Shown one piece after another: positions 2,324 through 32,502 of a DNA stretch of 32,625 bases. The position numbers were made by a program, and so were the translations under genes. Location: NCBI GenBank assembly GCA_003249795.1, contig QKHZ01000160.1:1-32625 (forward strand). Reading direction: 5' to 3'. The notes beneath the pieces are model-generated. The model was not told the origin of the DNA. It made no database searches and saw only the letters and a list, made by a program, of their open reading frames with translations. Source of the stretch: a bacterium. GTDB lineage: Bacteria > Planctomycetota > SZUA-567. Every line of letters starts with the position of its first letter. Position 1 is the stretch's first letter.

Positions 2324-2356
2324 AAAAAATCCCTCGCGCACAACGAGGGATTTTTC
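2324..2356. terminator. Bidirectional intrinsic terminator between GH94 and PilZ genes
   Basis: A perfect 12-bp stem (AAAAATCCCTCG at 2325-2336 pairing with 2344-2355) encloses a 7-nt loop. It has an A-run on the left and a T-run on the right, so it can stop transcription from both sides. It sits between two convergent genes, where such an element is expected. Confidence 0.85.
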
Positions 2357-2452
2357 CTTCATAAATTCAGATTGATCTGCCCGGTTTACCCTCTCTTTGT
2401 TACAAACTGGATTTGCCAGAACAAAAACGAGCATCACTGGAAACGAAATGGA

Positions 2453-2830: not shown

Positions 2831-2882
2831 GCTGTCCTCGCTTGCTCAGCCGCCAGTATAACGGAACAAGAGTGGACAACGA

Positions 2883-2894
2883 AACAAATTTGTT
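2883..2894. promoter_or_regulatory. 12-bp perfect palindrome upstream of the PilZ gene
   Basis: AACAAATTTGTT is a perfect palindrome about 23 bp upstream of a -10-like TATACT (minus strand, 2860-2855) of the PilZ gene. It is followed on the plus strand by an A-run. It could be an operator or part of a weak terminator for the upstream deacetylase gene. No binding protein can be named. Confidence 0.3.
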
Positions 2895-2921
2895 AAAAAA
2901 GGTACATTGATTTAAAAATAA

Positions 2922-3809
2922 TTACAACTGCGAAAAATTGATCAACTCGATCCCAGACTGCTCAAACGCCGCCTTTACAGCGTCCGAACAAAGTGCGGAA
3001 AGCTCAAGCTCACGGTTCTCCTGAATCCAGCTTGTCCCGATCAACGGACGCAGCGCCTGCATTTCTTTTTCATCATAAATCCCCGGATGAGTCATCAGCT
3101 CCGAGGTTCCGGCTGGAAGGGATTTGGCAAGCGCAAGAAGAAACGGTTCACTGATCTGCCCGATATGGGTTTGTCCGAAAAAGTAGTCGGGCTTGGGAAT
3201 ATCCCTGAATTTCCCGTGCCGCAGCGTCACATACGTCCGCAATTTCGCCGAAGCGACAACGGCAGAAAACCCCGCCCACGGCAACGTCAGCACCGCCCGC
3301 CAGACCGGCTCGTTCAAACTGCGCACCGGAATCCGGTACTCCTGCCCAAGCCGACAGCAAAGCCGGTACAACGGCTTCCAGACCGCGTGATGTTTTTCAA
3401 AGTCCAGATGCGTCGGCGTGATCCCTGCCTGCAGAACCTTCTCAATCTGCGCGCGATACTCGACCTCGGCCTGACGCAGGATTTCAGGATTCTTGACCGC
3501 ACTCCCAAGCGCCGACACGGAATGACAAAACTGCCCGATATCGCCAAGCAGCTTAGCAACGGCAGCCGCATCGGAAACAGGCAGCCCCCGGACAATGTTC
3601 AAATGAACCCCGACGCCAAGAGACGGATTCTCACGCGCAACCCGTACGCCTTCGTCAAAACCTGGGCAGTTTGCCATTAACGTCGCGGAAGTCAGGATGC
3701 CGCTACGGTGTGCAGTCTCGATGCCGCGGCTGACACAGACAGAAAGACCCAGATCGTCTGCGTTGACAATCAGGCGGCGTTTGAAAGAATGGTTAGCGGT
3801 AGTTTTCAT
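2922..3809 (-). CDS. ChbG/HpnK (YdjC) family carbohydrate deacetylase
   Basis: YdjC-family enzymes are metal-dependent deacetylases that remove N-acetyl groups from amino sugars, either chitooligosaccharides (ChbG) or GlcNAc-bearing lipids (HpnK). The metal and catalytic signatures are NADDLG (residues 16-21), GVHLN with His69, a THLDFEKHH block, and MTHPG with His241 near the C-terminus. I place the start at the ATG at 3809, giving 295 aa. The open frame continues 40 codons upstream, but that stretch lies inside the preceding glycosyltransferase gene and does not resemble the family. The two genes overlap by 17 bp, indicating translational coupling. The pair suggests that a GlcNAc-type sugar is transferred to an acceptor and then deacetylated. 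No signal peptide is visible. Confidence 0.85.
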   Translation of the reverse strand: MKTTANHSFKRRLIVNADDLGLSVCVSRGIETAHRSGILTSATLMANCPGFDEGVRVARENPSLGVGVHLNIVRGLPVSDAAAVAKLLGDIGQFCHSVSALGSAVKNPEILRQAEVEYRAQIEKVLQAGITPTHLDFEKHHAVWKPLYRLCCRLGQEYRIPVRSLNEPVWRAVLTLPWAGFSAVVASAKLRTYVTLRHGKFRDIPKPDYFFGQTHIGQISEPFLLALAKSLPAGTSELMTHPGIYDEKEMQALRPLIGTSWIQENRELELSALCSDAVKAAFEQSGIELINFSQL

Positions 3810-4852: not shown

Positions 4853-4908
4853 GAACAACATACATACGTATCATGAATGGGCAAGAATGGTGCGCAGGGG
4901 AGGATCGA

Positions 4909-6729: not shown

Positions 6730-8829
6730 CTATTCCTGCAGCCACAGAATCGACGTGACGCCGCGCGGATAATATTTGCTGCCGTGCGCCACACCGCTGC
6801 GCATCTGGTCGCTCCACGCCCAGTACAGGTTTTCCTCTTTTTTCAGCCACGCCGCATGCGCACGGTCGGCAGACTCTTTCGTTTCTTTTGCAGAGAAACC
6901 GAGGATTTTGCGCGCAACAAACTGGCAAAGATAAATCTTCGACAGCCACGAGTTATCCGCACTGCTGGAGAGCTTCCACCCGCCACCCGGGTACAAACAC
7001 GCGCCTTCACACAGAACCGTTTTCAGATGCGTTTTTAATACACGGATCAAGTCGCCATACGTCCCGCGCTCCGACAGCACCGACTGCATCTTCAGCACAT
7101 ACGGAAAGACCAGTCCTTCGATCGCCGGAATGATTTTCGAATCGCACTTTTCTCCCAGAATCGCGGGAATAAAGCCGGCCGGATTCATGTGCGATACAAT
7201 CGTCGCGGCCGCACGTGCCGCCTGCTTTTCCGCATCCGCGGCATGCGACGGCAAACGGTTTGCACGAAAGATCTCCGCCATCGCCACATACGCCGCCCAA
7301 CTCTTTACCGCCAGATAAACGTTGTTGCGGGCCTGACCCAGCGACCGGTCAAGGCTGTCGTAGGTCGTAATCTCCGCGCCGTTCAGCGTCCGCGAGCTGT
7401 CAAGCCCCATGACGCCGTTACGCTGAGAATCCTTCGGATGGTCACGCCGCATCATCGAGACAAGGCACTTTTGAAAAACAGGAAGGTTCTTTTTCAGCCA
7501 CCGTTTATCCTTCGCCAGCTTTGCATAAACAGCCGCGCACAAGACCCAGTTCACCAACTGCTCGTGCGTCATATGGGAAAAACATCCGGACAGATTATAC
7601 AGTTCATACGTCGAATACCCCGCACGCGAAATCCGGTTGCTGCGTCCCATATCGTGCGTGAAGCTGATGCCGCCGGGGTGGACATTCCCGCCTCCGGGAA
7701 CGTGCAGCTTGTCCGTATAGCTGTAGCGGCGTGTGAACCAATCCAACTCGTTACGAACCGTCCACGGGTTCATCTTCATTTCATAAAACAGTTGGTCGAC
7801 GGTCAGGTCGAAGGTGTTCATCATCCGGTACTCACCTTCGTTGACAACCCAGAAGGGTTTGCCATCCCAATCGAGCAGTTGCGTTGAGCCGTAGTAACTC
7901 CGGATCGCGTGGATCATCTGGAATTTCTGATCATCGCTGAGGCGGGCGCGGCTGACAAGTGCATTTGCATGTTCCGCCCGTTTTTTCAGCGCGGTAAAAT
8001 TGTCCATACCGAAGCGCGCAACCGACGCGAGGGTTTTGAAATAGCGCGAGTACAAGTACGACATCCCTACGCCGGAGGTAACCACGCCGCCACGGTACAA
8101 TGCAATCACAAACCGCGCAGTAACTTTTTTTCCCGCCGCAACCGGAACTAGAAGCGCAACCGTATCACCAAGTCCAAACGTGAGGTTTTCCGGCGTTTTT
8201 TCAACTAGGATATCATTGATCGAAAAGCCCTGCCCAGCCACAGCGTCCGTTGCGTCTGTCACAAGCGCGACGGAGTTGCCTTGCCCCGCGCCTTTCATGG
8301 AGCCGGACAACTCATCCAAAATTCGCGCCGAATCCGCTTCGATTCCACCTGAAGCCTGAAACCCGAAGAACGCGGTTCGCGGCGTTTTTCCTGCGCGATT
8401 ATCCACCGTCAGTTCCGCCAACACACACGGACAGTACGCTGCTTTCAACTCCGCCACAGTCGCTTTATCCGGTTCCGGCGCTGCGGCAACAGGCGAATAA
8501 ATTTTAAACACCAGATCGTCTACCGACCACGTATCGGTGCCGAGTTGATAGTCGCGCTGGATTTTATTTTCCGCGTATGACGAAATTGCGTTCTGCGATT
8601 TCTTTTTGTCGGCAGCGTGGTCGTAGCGCGAGGCGGCGCTTTCGGATTCCACATAAAACGGCAGCGCCTTGAACTTGCCCGGAGTCTTTGTCTCTACGCC
8701 AATGTAAACGGATTGATCGGCAGGACGCCCCAGCTCCACGCCAAAGCCACCGCTTCGGCCGCGACATCCCAAAGTGAAACTTGCATGCGCACCAATCGGT
8801 GAATGAAACGCGTTATAAAAAATCGTCAT
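6730..8829 (-). CDS. GH52 beta-xylosidase
   Basis: GH52 enzymes are retaining beta-xylosidases that release xylose from xylobiose and short xylooligosaccharides. The 699-residue length matches the family (about 700). From memory of the Geobacillus enzyme, colinear blocks run from the N-terminus (NAFHSPIGAHASFTLG) to the C-terminus (GSKYYPRGVTSILWL). The family nucleophile Glu335 corresponds to Glu331 in VVNEGEYRMMNT, and the acid/base Asp495 to Asp491 in TYDSLDRSLGQARNN. Both are present with the same offset of four. There is no signal peptide, so it is cytosolic and needs imported xylooligosaccharides. A CAGGAG ribosome-binding site precedes the ATG. No xylan transporter or regulator is adjacent; it stands alone, convergent with the FHA gene. 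Confidence 0.95.
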   Translation of the reverse strand: MTIFYNAFHSPIGAHASFTLGCRGRSGGFGVELGRPADQSVYIGVETKTPGKFKALPFYVESESAASRYDHAADKKKSQNAISSYAENKIQRDYQLGTDTWSVDDLVFKIYSPVAAAPEPDKATVAELKAAYCPCVLAELTVDNRAGKTPRTAFFGFQASGGIEADSARILDELSGSMKGAGQGNSVALVTDATDAVAGQGFSINDILVEKTPENLTFGLGDTVALLVPVAAGKKVTARFVIALYRGGVVTSGVGMSYLYSRYFKTLASVARFGMDNFTALKKRAEHANALVSRARLSDDQKFQMIHAIRSYYGSTQLLDWDGKPFWVVNEGEYRMMNTFDLTVDQLFYEMKMNPWTVRNELDWFTRRYSYTDKLHVPGGGNVHPGGISFTHDMGRSNRISRAGYSTYELYNLSGCFSHMTHEQLVNWVLCAAVYAKLAKDKRWLKKNLPVFQKCLVSMMRRDHPKDSQRNGVMGLDSSRTLNGAEITTYDSLDRSLGQARNNVYLAVKSWAAYVAMAEIFRANRLPSHAADAEKQAARAAATIVSHMNPAGFIPAILGEKCDSKIIPAIEGLVFPYVLKMQSVLSERGTYGDLIRVLKTHLKTVLCEGACLYPGGGWKLSSSADNSWLSKIYLCQFVARKILGFSAKETKESADRAHAAWLKKEENLYWAWSDQMRSGVAHGSKYYPRGVTSILWLQE

Positions 8830-17756: not shown

Positions 17757-18617
17757 TTAAATTGAGCGGAAAATCTCTTCCTGTTCTGGTGATTTTCGGA
17801 ATTCGCCGGGGGACATTCCAATGCGCTGCTTGAATTGTCGGTAAAACTGGATACTGCTGGCGTATCCGCAGCGATAGGCAATTTCCTCGTTCGACAGCTT
17901 TCCCTCAACCAATAATTGGCAGACTCGCCGCAGCTTTGCCGACACAATATAGTCGTGAATTGTCACATTGAACTGCCGCATGAAAATACGCGAAAGATGG
18001 CTTCTGGTAACAGAAAGCGCATTTGCAATTTCAGACACATTAACCGGTTGGTCAAGGTGGTCGTCAATAAACGTGCACGCATTGCGGACAAGGCTATGGT
18101 GCTGAACGTTTTTCTTATCCTTTGATTCGCGCAGTTCGCCGATAAGCTGACAGACCAATTGGGTCGCCTCGAATGCATCGATATTGATCGTGCCGCCATC
18201 AGAATACTGTTTATACCACGCAAGCATTTTCCGGATCAGATGGGAATCGGGAGAAAGCGCAAATTTCACCCCGACGTTATCGATCAATGTATTGATGATT
18301 GATTCCATTTGTTCTGCATAAAACTCAAAATAGATTCCCTCCCATTCATCACATCCCTTTGGAGTACTGAAAATAAAGCGGGTACTGGGAAATTTTATAA
18401 ACATTGCCGTTCCGGAAGGTAAACGCCAATTTACGTTTTTTTCGATATCCGCGATATCACCATATCCAGAGAGTGTGTATTTAAACAGGTAATAGCTGTT
18501 TGGGGGACGGATCTTTGCCGAAGTATATCCGCTTACATCCAGAGAATATCCCAGATATAACGGAATCGGGGCGCCTTTGAACTGGTTTTGAACCGTAAAC
18601 TTCACGACATTGAACAT
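17757..18617 (-). CDS. AraC-family transcriptional regulator
   Basis: The 286-residue protein has an N-terminal cupin-like sensor region (about residues 10-160) and a C-terminal AraC DNA-binding domain (about 185-280) with two helix-turn-helix units. These are VNVSEIANALSVTRSHLSRIF and the signature stretch SNEEIAYRCGYASSIQFYRQFK, followed by GMSPGEFRK. The start is the ATG at 18617, preceded by TGGGGA; the frame can be extended 20 codons to a TTG, but with no better site. It is divergent from the prepilin/GH unit, so it most likely senses a sugar released from the locus substrate and controls that unit. The inducer is unknown. Confidence 0.93.
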   Translation of the reverse strand: MFNVVKFTVQNQFKGAPIPLYLGYSLDVSGYTSAKIRPPNSYYLFKYTLSGYGDIADIEKNVNWRLPSGTAMFIKFPSTRFIFSTPKGCDEWEGIYFEFYAEQMESIINTLIDNVGVKFALSPDSHLIRKMLAWYKQYSDGGTINIDAFEATQLVCQLIGELRESKDKKNVQHHSLVRNACTFIDDHLDQPVNVSEIANALSVTRSHLSRIFMRQFNVTIHDYIVSAKLRRVCQLLVEGKLSNEEIAYRCGYASSIQFYRQFKQRIGMSPGEFRKSPEQEEIFRSI

Positions 18618-18685
18618 TTTGTCCCCAAGATGGCGCGAAGCGCCAAGGAAAGCACAAATCGTTAGTAAAAGGCACAAATTGCAAG

Positions 18686-18782: not shown

Positions 18783-19685
18783 ATGAGACTGATAAAGCAT
18801 GATCCACTCACGGATCCAGATTTCCCGTCGCTGCAGGCTTTATCTCCGTCACAGAAGACAAATGAGAAGATGCCGATACATTGCCAGCCGCGTCGAAGCT
18901 CTTTTACATTAACGGAGTTACTGGTCGTCATCGCGATCATTGCCATCCTTGCTTCTTTTTTACTGCCCAGCCTGCGCAATGCGCTGGCGATTGCAGACAC
19001 ATCTGTTTGTGCAAATAATCAGCGGCAAACAGGAATGGGCCTGCTGATGTATTGCGACGACAACAATGGTTTTTTACCCAATCTCTGGCAGAACAATGAT
19101 CTGATTTTTACCGATGCAATTTCGATATATATTAATTCACCCGGAGTCATCAAACGCACCTGGGCGACATCAGGAACATACGCATATAACAGCCTCTATA
19201 CGCCATATCAGTATATCTATACATCAAAATCGGTTTTTATATGCCCAGAGGCCGCAAAAAATCTGGTGTATCCTTTTACCGGATCATCTGCAGGCTATTT
19301 TATATCGAATTACTCACCGACGTGTACAGACGGTTCAAGTACATCGGGGGCGTATCCGTACGCCTGGTGGCGCAGCAGCAGTCAAACATATGCAAATCCT
19401 GCCGGTCGCAAGCTAAACCAGATCCTGGGAAAAATCATTGTCGGTGAACAGCGCTATTATCATGCGGCGTCAATCGGCGGAAATACCGTTTGCAGAACAA
19501 CACAGGCGATTAAAGACTGGTGTGGTGCAGACTCAATCTATCTGGCTGAAAATCAGTATGCCGCCGGAAATGTGCATAATCGGGGCACAACCGGAAATTG
19601 GCTGTTTAAAGACGGGCACGTCAGCTGCTATATTTTTAATTCAAAAATCATTAACTCATCAAGCAAATATTTTATGGGATTATAA
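18783..19685 (+). CDS. Prepilin-like secreted protein with N-terminal methylation motif
   Basis: The core is a type IV pilin-like N-terminus, SSFTLTELLVVIAIIAILASF, a processed hydrophobic helix with Glu at position +5. The residue before the predicted cleavage site is Ser rather than the usual Gly. The rest is an exported globular part with Tyr/Ser/Asn-rich sequence and a C-terminal HNRGTTGNWLFKDGHVS, reminiscent of the H-X9-DG motif of DUF1559-like prepilins but with 11 residues between His and Asp-Gly. Such proteins are very numerous in Lentisphaeria and Planctomycetes beside glycan-degrading genes; their function is not established. The start is ambiguous: ATG 18783 (300 aa, AGGA 10 nt upstream) or ATG 18870 (271 aa, giving a shorter basic leader). 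It is first in the unit with the two hydrolases. Confidence 0.85.
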   Translation: MRLIKHDPLTDPDFPSLQALSPSQKTNEKMPIHCQPRRSSFTLTELLVVIAIIAILASFLLPSLRNALAIADTSVCANNQRQTGMGLLMYCDDNNGFLPNLWQNNDLIFTDAISIYINSPGVIKRTWATSGTYAYNSLYTPYQYIYTSKSVFICPEAAKNLVYPFTGSSAGYFISNYSPTCTDGSSTSGAYPYAWWRSSSQTYANPAGRKLNQILGKIIVGEQRYYHAASIGGNTVCRTTQAIKDWCGADSIYLAENQYAAGNVHNRGTTGNWLFKDGHVSCYIFNSKIINSSSKYFMGL

Positions 19686-19740: not shown

Positions 19741-21891
19741 ATGAATATGCAAAACCTTGTGACCGAAGTGAAATTATATCAAAATGTCCCAATAATTTTT
19801 GTAAATGGCGAACCGGTATCGGGACTCATGCACTGGAACCGGAATATGGAGCCTGAAGACGTAAGGAATTTTGCAGAAGCGGGCGTCCATTTTTTTTCGT
19901 TTCTTGGAAATATTGATTTGAAGGATGGCGCCACAGACCGCGTCGATGATGGCCGCCCCTTTTGTCATACGATGACACCGGATTATATCGATTCAGTGAT
20001 GACAAAAATTCTGGGCGCAGACCCGGAAGCGCTGATTATTCCGCGTTTTCGGCTGCAGGCATCTGAAATATGGAAAGCAAACCATCCGAATTCGCTGACA
20101 CAATCGTATCACTTTGAACTAAATGAATATGATGATGTAAAAATGACGTCACTCGGAATTGATGAATGGATCGACGATGCGCTTAACGGCCTGGCCCGGT
20201 CAATCGAACATTGCGAAAATCGGTGGGGAGATCATATCGCCGGGTACCATTCCGGCTTTGGTGACTGTGCAGAACACGTTTATGCTTGGGGATCGCGGAT
20301 TGCGGATTACCACCCTGAAATGCTGAAAAAATTTAAACACTGGCTAAAATACAAATATAAAACAGAGGAAATGCTTTGCGATGCATGGCAAATCGCCGAA
20401 ATAACATTTGACCAAATTGAATTTCCAAACCCGGAAAATTATGCGAAAATATCTCCCGGGCTTTCATGTTTGCTGAATCCTCAACATGAGCAACAGCTTA
20501 TTGATATGATGGAATTTAATTCTGACTATATGGCCGGGCTTGTTGTCAAACAAGCCTGCAAAGCAAAAGAAACATTAAGTAAGCTCAAAAAGAAAAAAAT
20601 ATTCGGCGTCTTTTATGGGTATATGAATTTACCCGCGAATGAGATCGCGCATTGCGCACATGGTCATGACGCGCATGAGAAAGTGCTTACATGCCCTGAG
20701 CTTGATTTCATCTCTGCACCCGTTGGCTATTCAGCCCGACAACCCGGCGGCGTAAGCACGGGCCAACTCGCCCCGGCAAGCGTCCAGTTGGCCGGGAAAT
20801 TATATTTTGCAGAAGACGACTCCGGAACAAATTTAACCGCAAATAAACACAACACGATGCCGGGAACAGCAGAACAGGCGAGTCAGATTCTCACCAGAGG
20901 ATTTCTGGATGTCTGGAGAAGCGGGGGAACGCAATGGTTCATGGATCTGCATGGAGAAGGAGAGTATCGAGACGCCGAACTCATGTCAACGATCGGCAAA
21001 TTGACGGACTTTGCACAGAAACACATTCATGACCGAGAAAGTTGTGCAGAAATTGTCGTGTTCTTTTCAGACAAAAGTTTAAATTATTCAAAAACGTTAA
21101 ATGTATTTTCTGGAAATTTACTTGAACAACAGTTAAATGAAATTTGTTCAATTGGCGCCAGTTTCGATGTTTTCCGCATTGAAGATTTACCAGAACTGGT
21201 TCGGCAAAATCGCCTGAAAAAATACAAGCTGGCAATCATGCTTAATCTTCATTCGGTTTCAGATCCACTGCGTGAAGATATTGAAAATTATCTAAAAAAA
21301 GACAAACGTACACTCCTGTGGTTTCATGCTCCGGGAATTATTTATCATGGCAAGTTTTCGGTAGAGCAATCGAATGCCTTGACCGGAATAAACTGTGTCA
21401 TGCAAGAAAAAGGCAGATTGTCACTGATAACAGAAGTGCTGATTGAAGGCAAACGGTTTAGCTATGGAACGCAGCGCAATATTTATCCAAGACTGATTGC
21501 CGCAGACCCTTGCGCCGAAACATTGGGATATCTTGTTGAAGGCACGACCATTCCGTTCCGGCAGGATTCCGATGGCGGAATGTTTGTAAAAAAAGCATTT
21601 CCGGATTATTGCGCAATGTGGAGCGGATCTCCCAATATGCCGTCAGGATTACTAACAATTATTGCGAAAGACGCCGGCGTACATATTTACTGCAAGTGTG
21701 GCAGTCAAATGTTCAATACAAATAACTGGGTGGGAGTTCATGCAAAGTGGACAGGCGAACTGATATTAAAATTCCCTCAAAAACTAACATTTACAGATGC
21801 GTCAACAGGCGAAATTGTTGTCAATAATGAAGATTATTTCCGCCGTACAGTCGTGCGTGGACAAAACATTCTTTTGGAGATGGTCCAATAA
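19741..21891 (+). CDS. GH42-like (clan GH-A) glycoside hydrolase, cytosolic
   Basis: The 716-residue protein has an N-terminal TIM-barrel-like region (about 1-420), then a flavodoxin-like domain (about 433-535) resembling the beta-galactosidase trimerisation domain. That domain runs from AEIVVFFSDKS to LLWFHAPGIIYHG. A small beta C-terminus follows. Candidate catalytic glutamates are Glu178 in GDCAEHVYAWG (acid/base position) and Glu358 in LYFAEDDSGTN (nucleophile position). These are assigned by location only. No signal peptide is present, so it should act in the cytosol on an imported fragment. It starts 55 bp after the prepilin-like gene and ends 42 bp before the GH2-like gene. Related enzymes act on beta-galactosides, but the substrate here is not known and a newer GH-A family is possible. 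Confidence 0.75.
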   Translation: MNMQNLVTEVKLYQNVPIIFVNGEPVSGLMHWNRNMEPEDVRNFAEAGVHFFSFLGNIDLKDGATDRVDDGRPFCHTMTPDYIDSVMTKILGADPEALIIPRFRLQASEIWKANHPNSLTQSYHFELNEYDDVKMTSLGIDEWIDDALNGLARSIEHCENRWGDHIAGYHSGFGDCAEHVYAWGSRIADYHPEMLKKFKHWLKYKYKTEEMLCDAWQIAEITFDQIEFPNPENYAKISPGLSCLLNPQHEQQLIDMMEFNSDYMAGLVVKQACKAKETLSKLKKKKIFGVFYGYMNLPANEIAHCAHGHDAHEKVLTCPELDFISAPVGYSARQPGGVSTGQLAPASVQLAGKLYFAEDDSGTNLTANKHNTMPGTAEQASQILTRGFLDVWRSGGTQWFMDLHGEGEYRDAELMSTIGKLTDFAQKHIHDRESCAEIVVFFSDKSLNYSKTLNVFSGNLLEQQLNEICSIGASFDVFRIEDLPELVRQNRLKKYKLAIMLNLHSVSDPLREDIENYLKKDKRTLLWFHAPGIIYHGKFSVEQSNALTGINCVMQEKGRLSLITEVLIEGKRFSYGTQRNIYPRLIAADPCAETLGYLVEGTTIPFRQDSDGGMFVKKAFPDYCAMWSGSPNMPSGLLTIIAKDAGVHIYCKCGSQMFNTNNWVGVHAKWTGELILKFPQKLTFTDASTGEIVVNNEDYFRRTVVRGQNILLEMVQ

Positions 21892-21933: not shown

Positions 21934-24900
21934 TTGATCCAGAGTAATCGCATCCAGATGCTGTTTATAATATTTTCGGCTTTATTCACCACAGTAACCG
22001 GCTTTGGTGAAGACCGGAGCAATACACACAACAAGGATAAGCCCTCTTCTGCCGGAAAACAAATCGCATCATTTGATTTTGAGTCATCCGCTGATAACTC
22101 CTACTCATTAAATTCAAATGCACAAATCACGACAGATCCGGCTATGGTTATTGCCGGAAACCATAGCCTGCGATGGAATGGCTGGGAAGCCCCGAAAGAA
22201 TGGAATGAATTCCTACACAGCAATAACGCAAAATTTCCACTCAAAGCAAACTCCTCATATACCGTCAGTTTTAAGTACAAAATCATTAATAAGCGAACGG
22301 TAAAGAGCCAACTATACTTTCTGGTTCGTTCTGCTTCAGGTGGGCATGACGCTGATACAGGATGGACTGAAATTAATGACGAGGTTGGAATATCCGGCGA
22401 AAAATCCATCACATTTACTTTGGGTAATTTTGCGGACTATTCTCTAATTATCGGCGGCCACTATCAATGTGAAGTTGTAATTGATAATTTAATGCTTTTC
22501 GAAATCAATCAAGAAAACACTGCAATAAATACAAGCACGCCAATTATTATTCCAAAATCCGAACAATATCTTATCGAACGTGCGCAAAGTATTGCCATCG
22601 ATGGCGATGGGACAGATTTTGGTTCCATTGACAATCTTCATGAATGGCACGCTCCGAAATATCTTTATCTTAACACAAGCCAAAGAATTTTTTCAAAAAA
22701 CGAATGGAAGGGTGATGAAGATTTGTCTGGAAGAGTTACGCTTCAAAAAGATGACTCATACCTCTATATTTTTGCCGAAATCATTGATGATGCGCCCATG
22801 AATCAAACTAACAAATCACAGTGGGAAAACGATTACATTGAACTCTTCTTATCAACCTGTCCACATCAAGGCGATACGAATCAATACGTATCCGGTGATT
22901 ATCAACTTCAATTACTTCCAGGCAACGATAACACCAAGCCATCCGTATTTCTGCTTAAAACAACAGATAACAACAAAAAACTTCAAACACAAGTTTTAGA
23001 TTTTGAAATCATATCAAAAAAAAAGGCAGTAAACATTGATGATAAAAGTAGCATTGGGTATGTCGTTGAAGCAAAAATCAGTCTGAAAAACTTTCCTGAG
23101 CTTGCACCCGAAAGCCCCTATATTATTTTCAATATCGCCGTGGGAGACCGGGATGATGCGATCTTTAAAAAATGTTTTGTTGGAGGGACAGACCAGTCAC
23201 ACATCAGCACGGAAGGTTTTTTGTATGGTTTCATTTATAAAAAAATACCTGTCTATTTGGATCACCATTTTGACATAGGAAATGGGGCAGAAAACTGTTT
23301 GATTCCAGACAACATCCTTCCGGAACGAATGACAGGCCAAAAAGTCCGTATATGGGATATGAAACTTGCGGCCAAGAAGAAATATGAAGCCCGAGAAAGC
23401 ATCTGTCTTGACGGCATTTGGGCTGAACAAACGTTTTCAGAAAAACCCGGATGTCTTGATGACAACGCCTGGAAATATATTTTGGTGCCGATTAGCAGCA
23501 AGGGATTTCGAGAGGATTGGCTTCATCCATATTTTGAAAATAAGGATGGAATGCTATCTTGCATTTCCGGCATTCAAAGCTATAAACTTTTTCCGAAACA
23601 ATATTATCGCGCTTTATTTCGCACATTTTCTCTTCCGTTATCATGGAAAGGGCAGAGTGTTTTTCTGCAGGCAGACAATCGAGGCATTGTTGTCAGCCTG
23701 AGTGTCTATATCAATAAAACTTTGGTTTCAGGCAAATCTGACGATGGATGCTCATGTGTCGATATCAGTAAATATATTCAGTGGGGGAAACCAAACACAA
23801 TTACGATTCTGGCCAATTCAACAGCGTTACGAAAAAGCAGCAACGAATATCCATTATCATTAGGCGATATTTGGCTTCATAAAGGTTCAAAACAAAACTT
23901 TATTTCTTCTGCATTTATTAATTCAGATGTTCCAAACAATTCGATTGAATTTAATCTATCATTGGAAAATGAACTCCATCCGGACTTGAAGATTGATATT
24001 CTTGTATACGACAACCAGTCCGGAGAGATTGCTGCAGAGTGGTTGCAAAATAACGTGGACTCATTCACCATTGATAAAAATTCCGTAAAACTTAAAACCA
24101 TCTGGAACGGATATAAACCGTGGTCGCCGGAACATCCGAATCTCTATACAGCGCATATAAAACTGACAGCCGCAACTGGAGAAATCCTTGATGATGTAAA
24201 ACAACGTTTCGGAATGCACACGACCAGGATTAATGGCAAATATATTTTGCTGAACAACCATCCGGTTCACCTTCGAGGAGTACACATTAATTCTCGAACG
24301 CAAACATATAGCTATTACAAGCACATGAAAGAAATTGGGCTCAATACCTATTTTATTTTTGGCACAAATATTCCTGAATATATTCTCAACTGGTTTGATG
24401 AGCTTGGCATTTTTATTATTCCTCATGCCGGCGGAGCACATGTTGGGCACGCATTTGGCCAAGTGGACACGTCAATCGAACGGAGACGATGGATTGAAAA
24501 GGTTCGGAATCACCCATGCATCCTGATGTATCTTGGCAACATAACCCCTTCCGGCAAGGAATCAGGATGGATCCATTGGAATTTCAGCAAAACGGGGACA
24601 TCTTATTTCCCACAGGAAAATAAAGCGAATCTATTAATGCGCGGTGAAAATTTGAGTACGATTGATTTTTTGCAAAGCGCAGATCCGACTCGCCCTGTTT
24701 TTCATTATTGTGCTGGGAATCAAGAACCTGTCTGGTCAATTATGAATCATGCTGACTTTGGAATGCCTATACAAGAATGTGCCGCAGGTGCTGAATCTTG
24801 GGCGAAGACTGAAAATCCAAAGCCGTTTATCATGGCTGAGAGTTGGCCAATGCCAACAGGTGTGAATATTGATTTAGAACGAGGGGAATCTGCCCACATC

Positions 24901-27618
24901 TATTCGCCATTACGATATAAAGATCGCAAGAATGCAGACAATTGCCTCGTTATCGAAGAGTTATCACAGTACATTGGCGAAAAGGCATATGTTTATTCTG
25001 AGCCAGTGCGTACCTTTTCCTTGCCGAATGTTCATATCAGCATTATGAGTAAAATGTGGGACCGAAAAAATGAAGACATCTGGACACCGTCAAAAAAGTG
25101 GATGTATTGCCACAAAAATCCCGCTGAAATTGCATTAACAAGTATTGCGCTTCGAGAACACGCGCGTTCTGACCGAGGATATGGTTTGAGCGGAAGGAAT
25201 TATTTTACAGATGTATTCCCGTTCTCGTGTTACACCCAAGCAGACTCGCTTGCGGTAACACAAATGAATAATACGGATTCATTTTATACGCCGTTATCAG
25301 AGACTGATAATATTCAAAAACGGAAAATTTGGCGACAATATCGAACCAGCAATTTGTTCGGCATGGCTTCAGATACGGCAGCGCTTAATGATATCAACAA
25401 AATCATTCCAGAGAAAAACGAATACGACAACTATTTCAACGATGCCTTTAATCCATTTTTAATCTACATTGGCGGTGGCCCAAAACCAGAGCAGTTCAGA
25501 TATAAAGACCACAACTATTTCTCGCATGAAAAAATAATCAAGCATATTGTTCTTATTAATGATAGTGAAACTCAAATTGACTGTAAGGTAAATTGGGGGA
25601 TACGGCAAACAGGGAAAGTTCTTTTTGAAAAGCAGTTTGAAATTTGCATTCCTTCCTGTGTCCCGTTAAAAAAAGCAATTGAATTCGAACCCCCTGCTTC
25701 TATGATTCGGCAAGAATATGAGATTTTCATCTCGACAAATGTAAACAATAAGTTGCATGAAGATACCTTTACTATAACAGTTTTTCCTCCAACCAAAATT
25801 ACGGGAAATCTTACGATCTATTTATATGATTCACACGGAGACACACAAGATATATGTCAACGGATAGGGATTAATGCAACTCCATTTCAGTCATTCGATG
25901 CGACAGAAAAGAATAGCGTACTTGTAATTGGTAGAAATTCATTGAATTCACTTCTTGAATGCCATTCGACTGCGGCCCTTCAACAAAAGATTAAAGATGG
26001 ACTTCGCGTCCTTGTCATGGAACAAGCAGCTGGTTCATTATGGTACCCGTTGCAGAAAGAAATACGCGTTCGTCATCAATTTATCAAAGATCGTTATCAT
26101 CCGATTTTGATCGGCCTAAGCGACAAGGACTTCTCTCACTGGCGCGGGCAAGCGACATTGACAGAATCCCATCCGCAATGGGATCTGGCAACAGAATACA
26201 GCGATTTTACTTTACCGCAAATGTTCGGCCATTGGGGTGCAGAGGGCATAGTCAGTACGCTTCCGATGATTCGGCCTCAACATGGGAATGCACGGACACT
26301 TCTCAGCGGCGGTTTTGATCAGGAGTGGTCTGCACTGATGGAGTATGATTATCAAAAAGGAACAGTGATTGTTTCTCAACTCGACATGTGCGGAAGAAGC
26401 GCGGATGATCCTGTCGTTCATACTCTTTTCGCAAACATGATTCACTATTTGATAGATAAAAAAGAAAACCATTACCTGCCACTCGCGTATATCCCTGAAC
26501 AAAATCTCAACCAATTGCTTGATCGCTTTAAACCTGCGACAACCGAGAATCTTTCTGACACACAAGTTCTCGTGGTATCAGCCTCGCAGGAAAACCTCTC
26601 ACAAAAGCATGAATGGCTAGATGTTCAAGTAAGAAATCAGGGAAAAACAATGCTGGTTCTGCTTGCGGAGCCCTCTGATGACCTTGGTTGGTTAAGCCAG
26701 GATATTCAAATTATGAGAGAGGGAGAACACAATAACTGTTATTACAAACACATAATAACGGATGAAGAAAAAAATATGGCGTTTCTTGATGGGATAAATT
26801 CTGATGATTTATATTTCAAGTTCCGACGAGAAGAAATCCCCCTGATTACCAAAGTCCCGAAAAATGGGGAAATCTTTTTCAGTGGACTCGGTGCTTTTTT
26901 GAGGATGGGAAAAGGAAACGTAATTATTCTACAACTCAACCCTGAACGACACAAAGAAGAGCGTAGCTATAAAAAAGTAATACGGGTATTTTCAAGGCTA
27001 TTTACGAATTTAAATATCGGGCTTAATTACGAATTGAATTTCGGAAATAATGATTTAGAAATGTCATCAAGAATGTGGAAATTCTGTATTGACCCGCAGA
27101 ATCGGGGCGATAAAGAACGCTGGTTCTCCGCGGAGTACGATGATAGCGCTTGGCGCGATATTCATGTTGGAAAAAGCTGGGAGTCCCAAGGAGTTACCGA
27201 TACGAATCCGTTGGAAAATGCTTCCTTCGGAACATCATATAACGGAGTGGGCTGGTATCGCATTCAATTTGACGTACCCTCATATATTAAAGGAAAACAG
27301 CTTTATCTTGAAATCGCCGCGGTCGCGGGCGAAGATACGATTTATGTGAATGGGAACGTCATCGGTAAAACAGACAAAACATCCAGCGGTGACAGCCGCA
27401 ATCTAACCAAAATGTTCAGGAACTACCCAATCCCGACTGCGCTGCTGCATCCGAATGGCAATACCCTTGCAATCAAAGTCTACAACAACACGGGAATGGG
27501 TGGATTATCAAAACTTCCGGTGCGAATAATGACACATGATTGCCCCAATGAGACGGCTCTTTATCCAATTGAGAAAAGCAAAAAAACAGGCGACCCATAT
27601 CGTTTTATTATGTGGTGA
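21934..27618 (+). CDS. Secreted giant multidomain GH2-like protein
   Basis: This 1894-residue protein starts at a TTG at 21934, with GGAGG 7 nt upstream; the ATG eight codons later is the alternative. A signal peptide covers about residues 1-25. Then come a jelly-roll carbohydrate-binding-like region (44-190), a CBM9-like domain (219-430) and a GH2 sugar-binding sandwich (487-648). They are followed by a GH2 Ig-like domain (655-756) and a GH2 TIM barrel (from 756, with RGVHINSRTQTY and NWFDELGIFIIPHAGG). Two Rossmann/GATase-like segments (about 1290-1509 and 1509-1710) and a C-terminal galactose-binding-like sandwich (1714-1870) complete it. The nucleophile position is Glu969 in KPFIMAESW. 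At the usual Asn-Glu acid/base site the sequence is LGNITPSGKE (Asn869-Ile870). It may be inactive, use another acid, or bind glycan only. Confidence 0.8.
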   Translation: MIQSNRIQMLFIIFSALFTTVTGFGEDRSNTHNKDKPSSAGKQIASFDFESSADNSYSLNSNAQITTDPAMVIAGNHSLRWNGWEAPKEWNEFLHSNNAKFPLKANSSYTVSFKYKIINKRTVKSQLYFLVRSASGGHDADTGWTEINDEVGISGEKSITFTLGNFADYSLIIGGHYQCEVVIDNLMLFEINQENTAINTSTPIIIPKSEQYLIERAQSIAIDGDGTDFGSIDNLHEWHAPKYLYLNTSQRIFSKNEWKGDEDLSGRVTLQKDDSYLYIFAEIIDDAPMNQTNKSQWENDYIELFLSTCPHQGDTNQYVSGDYQLQLLPGNDNTKPSVFLLKTTDNNKKLQTQVLDFEIISKKKAVNIDDKSSIGYVVEAKISLKNFPELAPESPYIIFNIAVGDRDDAIFKKCFVGGTDQSHISTEGFLYGFIYKKIPVYLDHHFDIGNGAENCLIPDNILPERMTGQKVRIWDMKLAAKKKYEARESICLDGIWAEQTFSEKPGCLDDNAWKYILVPISSKGFREDWLHPYFENKDGMLSCISGIQSYKLFPKQYYRALFRTFSLPLSWKGQSVFLQADNRGIVVSLSVYINKTLVSGKSDDGCSCVDISKYIQWGKPNTITILANSTALRKSSNEYPLSLGDIWLHKGSKQNFISSAFINSDVPNNSIEFNLSLENELHPDLKIDILVYDNQSGEIAAEWLQNNVDSFTIDKNSVKLKTIWNGYKPWSPEHPNLYTAHIKLTAATGEILDDVKQRFGMHTTRINGKYILLNNHPVHLRGVHINSRTQTYSYYKHMKEIGLNTYFIFGTNIPEYILNWFDELGIFIIPHAGGAHVGHAFGQVDTSIERRRWIEKVRNHPCILMYLGNITPSGKESGWIHWNFSKTGTSYFPQENKANLLMRGENLSTIDFLQSADPTRPVFHYCAGNQEPVWSIMNHADFGMPIQECAAGAESWAKTENPKPFIMAESWPMPTGVNIDLERGESAHIYSPLRYKDRKNADNCLVIEELSQYIGEKAYVYSEPVRTFSLPNVHISIMSKMWDRKNEDIWTPSKKWMYCHKNPAEIALTSIALREHARSDRGYGLSGRNYFTDVFPFSCYTQADSLAVTQMNNTDSFYTPLSETDNIQKRKIWRQYRTSNLFGMASDTAALNDINKIIPEKNEYDNYFNDAFNPFLIYIGGGPKPEQFRYKDHNYFSHEKIIKHIVLINDSETQIDCKVNWGIRQTGKVLFEKQFEICIPSCVPLKKAIEFEPPASMIRQEYEIFISTNVNNKLHEDTFTITVFPPTKITGNLTIYLYDSHGDTQDICQRIGINATPFQSFDATEKNSVLVIGRNSLNSLLECHSTAALQQKIKDGLRVLVMEQAAGSLWYPLQKEIRVRHQFIKDRYHPILIGLSDKDFSHWRGQATLTESHPQWDLATEYSDFTLPQMFGHWGAEGIVSTLPMIRPQHGNARTLLSGGFDQEWSALMEYDYQKGTVIVSQLDMCGRSADDPVVHTLFANMIHYLIDKKENHYLPLAYIPEQNLNQLLDRFKPATTENLSDTQVLVVSASQENLSQKHEWLDVQVRNQGKTMLVLLAEPSDDLGWLSQDIQIMREGEHNNCYYKHIITDEEKNMAFLDGINSDDLYFKFRREEIPLITKVPKNGEIFFSGLGAFLRMGKGNVIILQLNPERHKEERSYKKVIRVFSRLFTNLNIGLNYELNFGNNDLEMSSRMWKFCIDPQNRGDKERWFSAEYDDSAWRDIHVGKSWESQGVTDTNPLENASFGTSYNGVGWYRIQFDVPSYIKGKQLYLEIAAVAGEDTIYVNGNVIGKTDKTSSGDSRNLTKMFRNYPIPTALLHPNGNTLAIKVYNNTGMGGLSKLPVRIMTHDCPNETALYPIEKSKKTGDPYRFIMW

Positions 27619-27813: not shown

Positions 27814-29124
27814 TTAATGGACCGTAATTTCCCGACAAAGAATTGTTTTCCGTTTTACGCCGTCTTCATCCGGATAGTAAAAGTCACTATAAAACAGCAT
27901 TGCACTATTGAAGCTAAGCGGCACAATCTCGGGGTTATTGCACGCACCATCCCAATCGTGAAACGTCGGAGTATCTACCTTACAATTTGCCAGATTGCTT
28001 CTGTCTCCGGGATCCATCAGAATAGCCGGCTCGCTCCACTTTGTTCCGCTTTCGTTTTCAGAGACGCAAACGAAGATACCCGGGCGGGCATAACACAAAA
28101 GAGTTTCCCCACATTCAAGGTTGCATAACCTCGGCAGAATGCCGACTTCAGAAAACTTTTGCGGCTTTGACCATGTATAACCGTCATCCGTTGAGCGTGA
28201 GAAATACATCGGTGCCCACTCCCTTCCAGTCGAGCAATACCATGCTGATCTCAGAAACCACACGATAGAACCGTCCGGCATAAACTCAAAATCACTGTCG
28301 CTAAATCCGCCGCTCTGGTACGGATACTCATCCCCATCAGCGTCATATTCCATGTGACCGCGAAGCTGAAACGAACGGCCATTGTCATCTGAACGAAATA
28401 GCTCTGCGGAATAGTACGGGCTGTACTTGCCTGTACGCGGATTGATGTGCCCCTCCCCCGAAAACGCACTGACCCAGATTGCACCATCAGGGCCGAGTTT
28501 CAGATTGCCGCGGGGGAATATCGGCTTGAGAATATTTTCATAATTATTACCGGTAAAAACAACACGCGTAAGAGATGGCCAATCAACCGGTACCATTTCA
28601 GTAACCGGCTCAGATTTACCTGCCGGGATTCGTTTGGCCAGCCATTTTTTTTCAGCGAGACTTGGCGGAAGACGGTCAGCATTATACGCTTTGATGACAG
28701 TTCCGTCGGTCCACCCCGTCATCCCGTCGGGGATTGGAATTGTTCCTTCTTCTGCCTGTTTGCTGAAATCATAACCTGGAGTCAACTGGCTCTGCGGCGT
28801 AAATTTGTAATCACTCAACGAGCGCCCTGACTCCATGGGAAAATAGATGCGGTCACCATTTCTTAACAGTAGCCCGCACTCGGCAGACACCGCAGCATCG
28901 ATTTCCGTCCATGTCATTCCTTTGTCCCTGCTTTCGAACCAGAGGTTTGTCTCGCCAAAGGATTTGATGTTATCATTCGTAACGTGGACAGCTACCACAA
29001 GCCTGTCGCCGAGGTTATAAGGACGGGGAAACTGATAAGGCCCCCAGAGTTTTTCCTCAGGACGAATGCCTCTGACAATAACGCGTTCCTCACCGATGGT
29101 AAGTTTCACCTTCTGCCCACTCAT
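27814..29124 (-). CDS. Sialidase-superfamily (BNR/Asp-box) beta-propeller protein
   Basis: The protein has three recognisable Asp boxes, SRDKGMTW (residues 65-72), SDDNGRSF (245-252) and STDDGYTW (311-318), spread through a repeated all-beta sequence as in six-bladed sialidase propellers. I start at the second of two ATG codons (29124, 436 aa) because AAGGAG lies 5 nt upstream of it but only 2 nt from the first. There is no signal peptide or lipobox, so it is probably cytosolic, unusual for a sialidase acting on polymers. Many proteins with this fold in glycan degraders have other specificities, and I could not assign the Arg triad. It converges on the GH2-like gene and may serve the same pathway. 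Confidence 0.78.
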   Translation of the reverse strand: MSGQKVKLTIGEERVIVRGIRPEEKLWGPYQFPRPYNLGDRLVVAVHVTNDNIKSFGETNLWFESRDKGMTWTEIDAAVSAECGLLLRNGDRIYFPMESGRSLSDYKFTPQSQLTPGYDFSKQAEEGTIPIPDGMTGWTDGTVIKAYNADRLPPSLAEKKWLAKRIPAGKSEPVTEMVPVDWPSLTRVVFTGNNYENILKPIFPRGNLKLGPDGAIWVSAFSGEGHINPRTGKYSPYYSAELFRSDDNGRSFQLRGHMEYDADGDEYPYQSGGFSDSDFEFMPDGSIVWFLRSAWYCSTGREWAPMYFSRSTDDGYTWSKPQKFSEVGILPRLCNLECGETLLCYARPGIFVCVSENESGTKWSEPAILMDPGDRSNLANCKVDTPTFHDWDGACNNPEIVPLSFNSAMLFYSDFYYPDEDGVKRKTILCREITVH

Positions 29125-29127
29125 CAT

Positions 29128-29572: not shown

Positions 29573-30052
29573 TTACTTCCGCATATACAGCGGACGATAG
29601 GACGGATCAGGCGCACCCCACCGGACATCCTGCATCCCGGCCCGATTACAAGCGTCCAGCGCATCCAGCACATGCCGAAACGGGACATTCGGTTTTGCGT
29701 TGATTGAAACAGGCGTATCCAACTGGCCTAAACTCCTTTTTTTCAGAATCTCCGACAGCATTATCCCACTAAATCCTTCTGCATTGCTTTTGCCGACTAT
29801 CCGGTCGTCCACGATATAGATCGCATTCTTTGCGCTATCGGGATCCGGATTGATTCGCAATTGGATATTTTTCCGGAACAGGGAATTCACCGACTGCGTG
29901 CCATCACCAGTCGGAAGGTTTGATCCGAGTTGCAGCTCCGGCGCCTTAAACGGCTGTAAGATAAAAAAGATTAGAAGCAGAAAGACGATATCGATCATCG
30001 AGGTGAATTGACTGGTCGCTTCATCGCTAACCCGGCTTTTGATTTTCGCCAT
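29573..30052 (-). CDS. ExbD/TolR-type biopolymer transport protein (paralogue 1)
   Basis: ExbD-type proteins form, with ExbB, a proton-driven motor in the inner membrane that energises outer-membrane processes. This 159-residue protein has a short cytosolic N-terminus and one transmembrane helix containing the essential Asp21 (SMIDIVFLLLIFF). The periplasmic domain includes TPVSINAKPNVPFRHVLDALDAC. GGGGAGA precedes the ATG. It is closely similar to the next exbD: residues 10-40 are nearly identical and both end GAPDPSYRPLYMRK. Its own 344-bp leader separates it from that copy, so it may have its own promoter. Confidence 0.9.
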   Translation of the reverse strand: MAKIKSRVSDEATSQFTSMIDIVFLLLIFFILQPFKAPELQLGSNLPTGDGTQSVNSLFRKNIQLRINPDPDSAKNAIYIVDDRIVGKSNAEGFSGIMLSEILKKRSLGQLDTPVSINAKPNVPFRHVLDALDACNRAGMQDVRWGAPDPSYRPLYMRK

Positions 30053-30209
30053 TACTCTCCCCTTTTTGCTTACCGCGATATGGCCCCGTAGACGCTGTTA
30101 TGGTTTCAATATCTGGCATTCACTCCGCAATGACTCCCTCCGTGTTCGCACTCAGACAATTTCAGTGACGCCCCTTGTAATCCAATAAACGCCGTATTTC
30201 AGAAATAGT

Positions 30210-30272
30210 TCATTCCTTTCTGGAAATTATTTCAAACCCATATCCTGCGCCCCTCGCCAGCAACATGCGCAT
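30210..30272 (-). CDS. Possible 20-residue leader peptide or gene remnant
   Basis: ATG at 30272 is preceded by AGGAGGTGA (30282-30274), the strongest Shine-Dalgarno I noticed in the window. It opens a frame of 20 codons (MRMLLARGAGYGFEIISRKE). The stop overlaps a second ATG (ATGA) that encodes MNYF and then a stop; a one-base frame change after it would continue for about 17 more codons. It may be a regulatory uORF for the downstream exbD, or what is left of a decayed gene. No homologue is recognised. Confidence 0.25.
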   Translation of the reverse strand: MRMLLARGAGYGFEIISRKE

Positions 30273-30310
30273 GTCACCTCCTCATTTTCACGCATAAACT
30301 GACACCGTAA

Positions 30311-30344
30311 AAAAAACGCCTTCACCTCAAGTGAAGACGTTTTC
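30311..30344 (-). terminator. Terminator of the middle exbD gene (copy B of the repeated hairpin)
   Basis: The stem halves are the same as at 29487-29520, with loop CTCAA instead of GCGAA, and again end in a T-run on the minus strand. It lies about 55 bp beyond the exbD stop at 30397, the same relative position as in the other copy. Confidence 0.8.
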
Positions 30345-30396
30345 AACATGTTCAAAACTGCTCGGACGCCTGAAGAAGCGTTTTTCGACAACCCGG

Positions 30397-30870
30397 TTAC
30401 TTCCGCATATACAACGGCCGGTAAGACGGATCAGGTGCACCCCATTTGACGTCAGGCATTCCGGCCTGATAACATGCATCCAGCGCACTCAGAACATACC
30501 GGAACGGGACATTCGGCTTTGCCTGAATCGAAACCGGCGTATCGGTTTGCCCACCACTGCGGCTTTTCAAAATACCAGCCAACTTGGCTTCCCCCTGAAA
30601 ACGGCTCTTTCCGACAATCCGGCCATCAACCATAAAAATCGCATGTTTCTCACTCTGCGGATCAGGATTAATCTGCAGCGTAATATTCTGACGGATCTGA
30701 GTATCGACCGAAGGGGCACCGCTGTCTTTCGGCAAGTCTGATGCGATCTTCAGTTCCGGAGCCTTAAACGGCTGCAGAATAAAAAAGATCAGCAACAAAA
30801 ACACGATATCAATCATCGACGTAAATTGGCTGGTTGCCTCATCGTTGATCTGGCTTTTGATTTTTGCCAT
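30397..30870 (-). CDS. ExbD/TolR-type biopolymer transport protein (paralogue 2)
   Basis: This 157-residue protein has the transmembrane helix with essential Asp21 (SMIDIVFLLLIFF) and a periplasmic domain containing TPVSIQAKPNVPFRYVLSALDAC. It is the sister of the gene at 29573. The start is the ATG at 30870, with AGGAG 4 nt upstream; the GTG one codon earlier is too close to that site. It probably works with the ExbB encoded at 31675. Divergence from the sister is concentrated in the periplasmic middle part (residues 42-100), where a specific partner could be contacted. Confidence 0.9.
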   Translation of the reverse strand: MAKIKSQINDEATSQFTSMIDIVFLLLIFFILQPFKAPELKIASDLPKDSGAPSVDTQIRQNITLQINPDPQSEKHAIFMVDGRIVGKSRFQGEAKLAGILKSRSGGQTDTPVSIQAKPNVPFRYVLSALDACYQAGMPDVKWGAPDPSYRPLYMRK

Positions 30871-30930
30871 CACTCTCTCCTAAGGCAGCTCTTTAAACAT
30901 TATGCCTATATCGCTGGCAATCAGAAAAAA

Positions 30931-30950
30931 CTGTCTTTCTTTCGCAGTTA
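30931..30950 (-). terminator. Possible weak hairpin between exbD genes
   Basis: On the minus strand AACTG and CAGTT flank a short loop and run into TTTTTT. It lies about 110 bp past the stop of the first exbD. The stem is only 5 bp, so read-through is likely and support is low. Confidence 0.3.
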
Positions 30951-31060
30951 AGGGTGGGCGGTAACCACCTTCTGTACCGCCGTTTTCAAGTTTCCAGTTT
31001 TGCCATAAGCAAGTTCATCAGGAAAGCAAAACCATCGTCTTGTTTTCAGACCGCGGTACG

Positions 31061-31525
31061 TCACTTATCGTGATCGAAACTTGGGTCGCGGGTCGAGAAC
31101 GCAATTCGCCAGATCTGCGCATCCATCAGGTGGGTCATCACCCGCTGCACAGCCCCATACTCCACGTCCTGATCCGCTCGAATCAGCACCGCTTTGTTGG
31201 TAAAGGCTTCGCCAGCCGCTTTGCCAAAGTCATGATGCATCTTGAAGGTTTGCCTCATGGACGCATCATCATACGGCGCCTGGTTCATCTCCACCACGCC
31301 ATCCTTCAGGATATTGATCACCAACCGGCCAGGAATCACTTCATCATCAATTTCAGCTTTGACAGCAGCGGGCAATTTCAGCTTTGACTTCGATGAATCC
31401 GCCATTTCCGTAACACACATGAAGAAGATGATCAGCAGAAACGTCACGTCGATCATCGACGTCATGTCAAAGCCGCCGCCTTCACTGGCTTCTGACGGAT
31501 CCGGCCTGCCTTTCTTAGCACCCAT
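31061..31525 (-). CDS. ExbD/TolR-type biopolymer transport protein (distant paralogue)
   Basis: This 154-residue protein has a longer Gly/Ser-rich cytosolic N-terminus and the transmembrane helix with Asp26 (TSMIDVTFLLIIFF). Its periplasmic domain (KLPAAVKAEIDDEVIPGRLVINI and the later KAVLIRADQDVEYGAVQRVM) is the usual ExbD/TolR fold. It is clearly different from the two sister genes downstream. GGGGAG lies upstream of the ATG. It is the gene nearest exbB and is likely to be its primary partner. Confidence 0.92.
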   Translation of the reverse strand: MGAKKGRPDPSEASEGGGFDMTSMIDVTFLLIIFFMCVTEMADSSKSKLKLPAAVKAEIDDEVIPGRLVINILKDGVVEMNQAPYDDASMRQTFKMHHDFGKAAGEAFTNKAVLIRADQDVEYGAVQRVMTHLMDAQIWRIAFSTRDPSFDHDK

Positions 31526-31674
31526 AACTCACTCCCCGAATGTCAACATGTTGCAAGCGGAAGTTCGATTGCAGCTCAGATGAATACGGCGTTTGACAGT
31601 TTTTACACACCTGCACTTACGCACATTCACCGCAGAAAACTGCAACCATTCCCACAGCCGACTTGATAATGCGA

Positions 31675-32502
31675 TTATTCGGCTGCTTCTTCCACCGGAC
31701 GGAAACGGTCGAGGATTTCGCTGTTAATCAGCCCCATGACCATCAGGATCTTCACAACACGACCGCGGAAGAATGTGAACATAACGGTTGCAGGAATAGC
31801 AACAACCAGCCCTTCCATTGTCGTCATCAGAGCGACATAAATACCGGCAGCAAGGTCGGATGCGTTTGACTGCGGGTTTTTCGCAATCGTACCGAACGCG
31901 GCGACCATACCCTGAACCGTACCAAGCAGACCCAACGACGGAGCTGTCGCGGCGATCAGGTTGATCCAGCCAAGCTTCTGGTGCAGAAGTGTCGCCTGAC
32001 TGTCGGCTTCTTCCGCCATCGCATCAGCCATACGGTCAAAGCCGTGCGCCATCTTGCCAAGACCGGCACCGATGATCCGTGTCATCATGCAGTCTTCGTT
32101 CTGGCAGATATTCAACGCGCCTTCGTAGTCGCCTTCGTCCAGAGCGTTTTCGATCTCACCCAGCAGGTCTTCCGGCATCATCTTGTTGCGGCGGATCGAC
32201 ATGAGATTTTCGATCGCAAGCCCGACAACGACAATACTCAGAAAACAGATGAAGATACCGATGGCACCTGAATTCAGAATCAGGGCGACCGGGCCTTCCG
32301 GAACCTTGGAGGTCTCGGCTGATTTACTTTCCGTTTTGCCGGTTGCAGCATCAGCAGCAGGAGCCGAAGCCGCCGCAGGAGCGGCCGCTGCATCCGCGGG
32401 AGCATCTTCCGCCCACACTGAAGCCATCGGCACTGCAAGAGCCATCACCGCAACCAACGCCAGTACCCCAAACAGGGCGCGGCCAAAACCAAACTTCTTC
32501 AT
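31675..32502 (-). CDS. exbB: ExbB/TolQ/MotA-type proton channel protein with cleavable signal peptide
   Basis: ExbB forms the pentameric stator around ExbD and couples proton flow to work at the outer membrane. The 275-residue protein begins with a signal peptide (cleavage likely after Ala31, ASVWA). An Ala/Pro-rich periplasmic stretch (about 32-70) follows, then three transmembrane helices: about 75-98, LGWINLIAATAPSLGLLGTV, and GIYVALMTTMEGLVVAIPAT. The cytosolic loop carries ENALDEGDYEGALNICQNE. GGAAAGGA precedes the ATG. Signal-peptide-bearing ExbB variants are familiar in several phyla. With three ExbD genes downstream, it probably powers TonB-like uptake or a Tol-type function. Confidence 0.93.
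   Translation of the reverse strand: MKKFGFGRALFGVLALVAVMALAVPMASVWAEDAPADAAAAPAAASAPAADAATGKTESKSAETSKVPEGPVALILNSGAIGIFICFLSIVVVGLAIENLMSIRRNKMMPEDLLGEIENALDEGDYEGALNICQNEDCMMTRIIGAGLGKMAHGFDRMADAMAEEADSQATLLHQKLGWINLIAATAPSLGLLGTVQGMVAAFGTIAKNPQSNASDLAAGIYVALMTTMEGLVVAIPATVMFTFFRGRVVKILMVMGLINSEILDRFRPVEEAAE

Follow-up and report, generated by a model that had tools for sequence, protein, structure and literature searches.

The locus described here, which lies in a planctomycete genome, raises the question of what a protein with a glycoside hydrolase family 2 (GH2) barrel may do when the acid/base glutamate of the family is missing. A sequence-only reading of the window, by which we mean the whole stretch of 32,625 nucleotides analysed, had noted an apparent loss of this kind in a GH2-like barrel with a nucleophile-like Glu969, and had suggested that the protein is a glycan-binding pseudoenzyme, that Glu876 or another acid takes over, or that the substrates have a good leaving group. 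The loss was borne out, as no carboxylate is found at the position in any alignment.

The GH2-fold protein of 1894 amino acids (aa) is encoded on the plus strand (21934..27618) by an intact open reading frame (ORF) that begins with TTG. The true start may be the ATG at codon 9, as it is followed by a stretch which by eye resembles a signal peptide, and the protein and its group are presumably secreted. A frame shift or decayed gene was rejected, as the ORF is open across 1894 codons. The protein is composed of a CBM9-like domain (aa 252-422, 22687..23199, PF06452, E=2.3e-13), a GH2 immunoglobulin-like domain (aa 656-761, 23899..24216, PF00703, E=4.7e-10), a deviant TIM barrel with approximate limits at about aa 773-1102 (24250..25239) and, at the C-terminus, a second GH2_N-like jelly roll (aa 1714-1826, 27073..27411, PF02837, E=2.1e-15), all on the plus strand. 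The GH2 barrel model PF02836 gave no match to the window barrel at E<=0.1.

The gene belongs to a stretch of three genes on the plus strand, encoding a prepilin-like protein (18783..19685, PF07963, E=1.2e-06), a GH42-like protein of 716 aa (19741..21891, PF02449, E=2e-05) and the GH2-like protein, separated by gaps of 55 and 42 bases, with an AraC-type regulator on the minus strand (17757..18677, PF12833, E=4.1e-21) divergent from it. The GH42-like neighbour has weak Pfam support, a PDB search with it returned no useful match, and it has matches in 16 of 99 genomes, its own included. On the other side the GH2-like gene is adjoined by a BNR-repeat-like protein (27814-29127, minus strand), and three ExbD-like ORFs and one MotA/ExbB-like ORF stand in a row at 29573-32502 (minus strand). 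The window also contains a strong GH94 match (5-2260, plus strand), a 598 aa protein with three FHA-domain matches (4873-6669, plus strand) and a strong GH52 match (6730-8829, minus strand, E=6.1e-156). In a related locus (L082) a prepilin-like ORF (2323-3153) is found directly upstream of the GH2-like gene, with a melibiase-like gene downstream; in the window and in L082 alike, glycosidase-like genes directly follow a prepilin-like ORF. The neighbours scanned, 20 ORFs from 15 of 80 loci, include in some related loci GH95, GHL6/GH42M and melibiase-like proteins, LacI regulators, an SSF symporter and an ABC permease, while several have no sugar-related match or no match of any kind. This context is consistent with sugar use but gives no exact indication of the substrate, the class of which would, judged from the neighbouring genes, be a glycan.

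A chance resemblance of the barrel to GH2 was rejected on a profile-profile match and a structure match. The profile with the window row first matched the canonical GH2 profile with 100% probability (E=1.3e-48), and the window model matched the GH2 entry 6b6l with Z 25.2 and rmsd 4.7 over 399 aligned residues. Structure prediction, one of the checks proposed together with the original claim, gave a GH2 fold both for the window barrel, in an AlphaFold2 model of middling quality (pLDDT 66.9, pTM 0.71), and for a typical member of the group described below, in a good model (pLDDT 86.0, pTM 0.89; Z 22.6 against 6b6l). The best matches among solved structures are GH2 galactosidases and glucuronidases, and entry 6hpd, which we take to be the characterised GH2_21 enzyme T2KN75, ranks 18th among the PDB matches, below ordinary GH2. 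Helix 6 of the window model starts at model residue 411, corresponding to aa 946, and in both models a Gln-Glu pair occupies the first turn of the helix following strand beta6; by topology this pair probably faces the active-site side.

In canonical GH2 the acid/base Glu stands ten residues after the Pro of the NHP block (P+10) in 13 of 13 control rows and is preceded by Asn in all of them, the Pro itself being replaced by Ala in one. The corresponding beta4 block of the window protein is RNHPCILMYLGNITPSGKE (24505..24561, plus strand), which starts with RNHPCILMYLGN (aa 858-869, 24505-24540) and ends with GNITPSGKE (aa 868-876, 24535-24561). Residues 869, 870, 876 and 969 are N, I, E and E exactly as the sequence-only reading had them, and Glu969 lies within KPFIMAESW (aa 963-971, 24820-24846). 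The assignment of Ile870 to the acid/base position stood less well. Positions P+8, P+9 and P+10 of the window protein are Asn869, Ile870 and Thr871, so that by ungapped spacing the residue equivalent to the canonical Glu is Thr871 (24544-24546), and Ile870, which requires a gap of one residue, was demoted to an alternative. The profile-profile alignment does prefer a one-residue gap in the group, pairing Asn with Asn, and the exact residue equivalence is thus ambiguous between spacing and gapped alignment. The loss itself holds either way, as neither Asp nor Glu occurs at P+10, P+11 or P+12 in any of 117 group rows; the alignment of homologues, another check proposed with the original claim, in this way confirmed it.

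Among the matches of the window barrel, in the genome of the window and in related ones, there are two kinds: ordinary GH2 proteins, which have GNE, and a set that lacks it. The seed profile (A1) was built from nine rows picked from matches without the Glu, the GNE matches L009 and L018 being excluded, and the group is therefore defined partly by that choice. The profile matched 57 rows: 41 with scores above 200 were taken as the group set, 13 served as canonical controls, and the partial rows L065, L066 and L067 were left out. All 41 group rows score at least 220 and the next row, a canonical one, scores 149. In the tree the 41 rows form one clade against the 13 canonical rows (support 100/98), and this together with the gap in scores supports the group as a natural one. 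The window row sits on a very long branch (2.4), and its joining with L064 was regarded as a meeting of long branches and not relied on. A scan of named genomes gave 440 relatives among 480 pattern matches, from which 80 loci were taken; after rows scoring below 300 and 5 duplicates were dropped from loci L068-L149, 76 rows were added to the 41, giving 117. As one of the two scan patterns was PLQER[ES][ED]W, which inflates Gln947 and Glu948 in the 76 added rows, the 41-row set provides the fair count for this pair.

By the names in the genome records, the group is found in Planctomycetota, Verrucomicrobiota, Cyanobacteria (Microcoleus, Tychonema, Oscillatoria), Armatimonadota and Spirochaetes, in bins named Sphingobacteriales and Chitinophagales, and in one Acidobacteriaceae bin; the three best candidates were scored per genome and counts per genome are lower bounds. 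No close relative of the window protein was found among 149 relatives, the nearest barrels being 24-28% identical. A second search centre of 119 genomes contributed one short match (34% identity across 153 residues), and no match there was closer across the barrel. For a plasmid collection, no group member was recognised among the 10 of 82 records listed, and the sole listed record covering 80% of the query is 22% identical in that place. PF00703 matches all 37 group members scanned, and these 37 match general GH2 models only. By its sequence, the window protein belongs as a divergent member to a well-supported and widespread group, and the pattern across that group suggests that the acid/base loss is a group trait and not the decay of a single gene.

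Comparison of the 117 group rows with the 13 canonical rows showed which parts of the site are lost, kept and gained. The acid/base column has Asn in 114/117 rows (38/41 in the profile set) and Thr in the window, and the column before it, Asn in 13/13 canonical rows, is Asn in none of the 117, which have Pro, Gly, His or Ala. The beta3 Glu, present in 12/13 canonical rows, is acidic in 0/117, and the beta2 Arg falls from 11/13 to 3/117, the group having Glu in 80 rows and Tyr in 19, and the window Phe. Conserved from GH2 are the nucleophile-position Glu969 on beta7 (24838..24840, plus strand; 116/117 rows, 40/41 in the profile set), the beta6 Tyr (115/117) and the beta8 Trp (110/117). Specific to the group is the pair Gln947-Glu948 at the start of helix 6 (24772..24777, plus strand): Gln947 is found in 116/117 rows and column 948 has Glu in 112 and Asp in 3 of them, and in the profile set, which is free of the scan pattern, the counts are 40/41 for Gln947 and 38/41 for Glu948. 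Canonical GH2 shows no conservation at column 948 (Glu in 1/13). Invariant in the group are Glu1008, an acid after beta7 (24955..24957, plus strand), and Arg1081, both in 117/117 rows and 41/41 of the profile set, and column 878 in the loop after beta4 is Asp in 101/117 rows and Gly in the window. After removal of rows more than 60% identical, 64 rows with a mean pairwise identity of 0.32 remained, of which 63 have Glu969, 59 Glu and 3 Asp at 948, 63 Gln947, 64 Glu1008, 64 Arg1081 and 61 the Asn of the acid/base column. That the nucleophile-position Glu persists across phyla at 32% identity argues for a chemical role.

The window row is one of the two most eroded of the group, with substitutions in 7 of the 12 site columns (Thr for the acid/base Asn, Gly for Asp878, His for Tyr939, Tyr for His925, Met for Asn937, Gly for Trp952 and Phe for Trp1097), and keeping Gln947, Glu948, Glu969, Glu1008 and Arg1081. 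The only row deviating more is L041 (G152:C258), which has Thr in place of both Glu969 and Glu948, has lost the beta6 Tyr, keeps Glu1008 and Arg1081 and is the only row without Glu969; by these residues it is likely a pseudoenzyme within the group. L015 keeps Glu969 and has Ala in place of Glu948. A relative from the same genome as the window, L195 (G000:C287:11675-13111), with an open frame of 1884 aa and outside the 117 rows, has Ala at P+10, lacks the beta4 Asn and Glu, and by eye keeps the Gln-Glu pair and the nucleophile-position Glu of beta7. In these few sequences the pair Glu948/Glu969 tends to stay when beta4 erodes.

From this residue pattern we infer, at not quite an even chance, that the group hydrolyses or transfers glycosides with a rebuilt site in which Glu969 is the nucleophile and another acid the proton donor. 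The beta7 Glu, beta6 Tyr and beta8 Trp of the GH2 pocket are retained in it. Of the other residues of the classical enzymes, the beta4 Asn-Glu pair and the beta3 Glu are missing and the beta2 Arg nearly always so, while Gln947-Glu948 at the start of helix 6 has been fixed together with Glu1008 and Arg1081. Glu969 would attack the anomeric carbon and a second acid would protonate the leaving group, Glu948 being the first choice and Glu1008 the second, with the loop Asp after beta4 as a further candidate in most rows but not in the window. Glu948 is the likeliest candidate for a relocated proton donor, while it could also be structural rather than catalytic. Of the three readings offered at the outset, that of another acid is accordingly the one which fared best as a suggestion, with Glu948 and Glu1008 as conserved candidates for what would be the donor role. 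A more specific version, which we regard as rather doubtful, is an unnamed family of clan GH-A in which the beta4 Glu has become Asn, the beta2 Arg mostly Glu or Tyr, and the donor has moved to the helix-6 Gln-Glu pair.

The main competitor is a non-catalytic, glycan-binding descendant which retains the pocket for lectin-like binding, a possibility which for the window protein we consider serious, if well below even. As a decayed enzyme it is unlikely for the group, in which the loss is common to widespread members and Glu969 is kept. For the window protein the changes at 7 of 12 site columns, second only to L041, make it a real rival, and the very long branch and the extra CBM9 and jelly-roll domains point the same way. 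A precedent is available in GH5_30 and in a GH5 module which, lacking its acid-base residue, serves an anti-sigma factor by binding cellulose (PMC3526467). The window protein nevertheless keeps Gln947, Glu948, Glu969, Glu1008 and Arg1081, and its ORF is intact over 1894 codons. For this protein alone the pseudoenzyme reading stands close behind catalysis with a relocated donor. The group may alternatively need no enzyme proton donor, because of a good leaving group, the substrate's own acid or a cofactor acting as base, as in the GH1 myrosinase; the absence of an acid from the acid/base position in 117/117 rows and the substrate-assisted catalysis of myrosinase (PMC6522968) would agree with this, but other acids, Glu948 and Glu1008, are fixed in the group and would be superfluous for such a mechanism, which we consider unlikely.

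The least probable candidate for replacing the acid/base residue is Glu876, which the window protein has in the loop following beta4. The acid is there, two residues ahead of the column which is Asp in 101/117 rows, so that acids of this loop may play a part in the group. It does not align with that column, however, which is Gly in the window, it is absent from the other divergent rows compared, and the window model around it is of middling confidence (blocks of mean pLDDT 63-68). Hardly more probable is some other sugar chemistry on the GH2 scaffold, for example that of a lyase or an inverting enzyme. Not only the acid/base residue but also the beta2 Arg and the beta3 Glu have disappeared, which makes the -1 subsite unlike that of GH2, but the nucleophile-position Glu, the beta6 Tyr and the beta8 Trp are retained. 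The rebuilt glycosidase site with Glu969 as putative nucleophile is our preferred reading for the group.

The group carries the GH2 name by general models, though the residues justifying that name are gone. If it is active, a clan GH-A barrel can swap nearly its whole catalytic set yet keep one Glu, and the group could become a new CAZy family; if inactive, it would represent a widespread set of glycan-binding pseudoenzymes. A search of the literature found no description of the group, which does not prove that there is none.

With canonical GH2 (LacZ/GUS, clan GH-A) the group shares the fold, the immunoglobulin-like domain, the beta7 Glu and the NHP block, as well as the beta6 Tyr and beta8 Trp, and it differs in being without the beta4 Asn-Glu and beta3 Glu, in having the beta2 Arg in three rows only and in its own invariants, the Gln-Glu pair, Glu1008 and Arg1081. 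PMC12243196 (2025) divides GH2 into 23 subfamilies and describes the Glu nucleophile as invariant and the Arg of beta2 as strictly conserved outside GH2_22. Replacement of the acid/base residue within GH2 is already on record there for two of the subfamilies. In GH2_21, the ulvan-active beta-glucuronidase type, the acid/base Glu is Trp in the characterised member and elsewhere Lys, Arg or Asn, and another conserved Glu has been proposed as substitute (PMC12243196). Replacement of the acid/base Glu is shared with our group, but the presumed column of the substitute (E402 of T2KN75), which spacing alone would equate with the beta3 Glu, is acidic in 0/117 group rows; membership in GH2_21, though conceivable, is not supported. 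In GH2_19 some members have TV, NA or NQ instead of NE, with a meaning left open (PMC12243196); as far as that account goes, the loss is there a minority variant, whereas it is found in every row of the present group. Compared by published description alone, the group fits none of the 23 subfamilies. The literature offers parallels in GH97, where the mechanism changes inside one family (PMC2670981), in the acid/base loss of myrosinase (PMC6522968) and in migrated catalytic residues of other enzymes (PMC10211241). GH5_30 and other inactive GH5 modules (PMC3526467) likewise have a clan GH-A barrel without catalytic residues, but the present group differs from them in retaining the nucleophile-position Glu in 116/117 rows. 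Judged by its sequences, the group is unusual for the extent to which the GH2 active site has gone while the nucleophile-position Glu stays.
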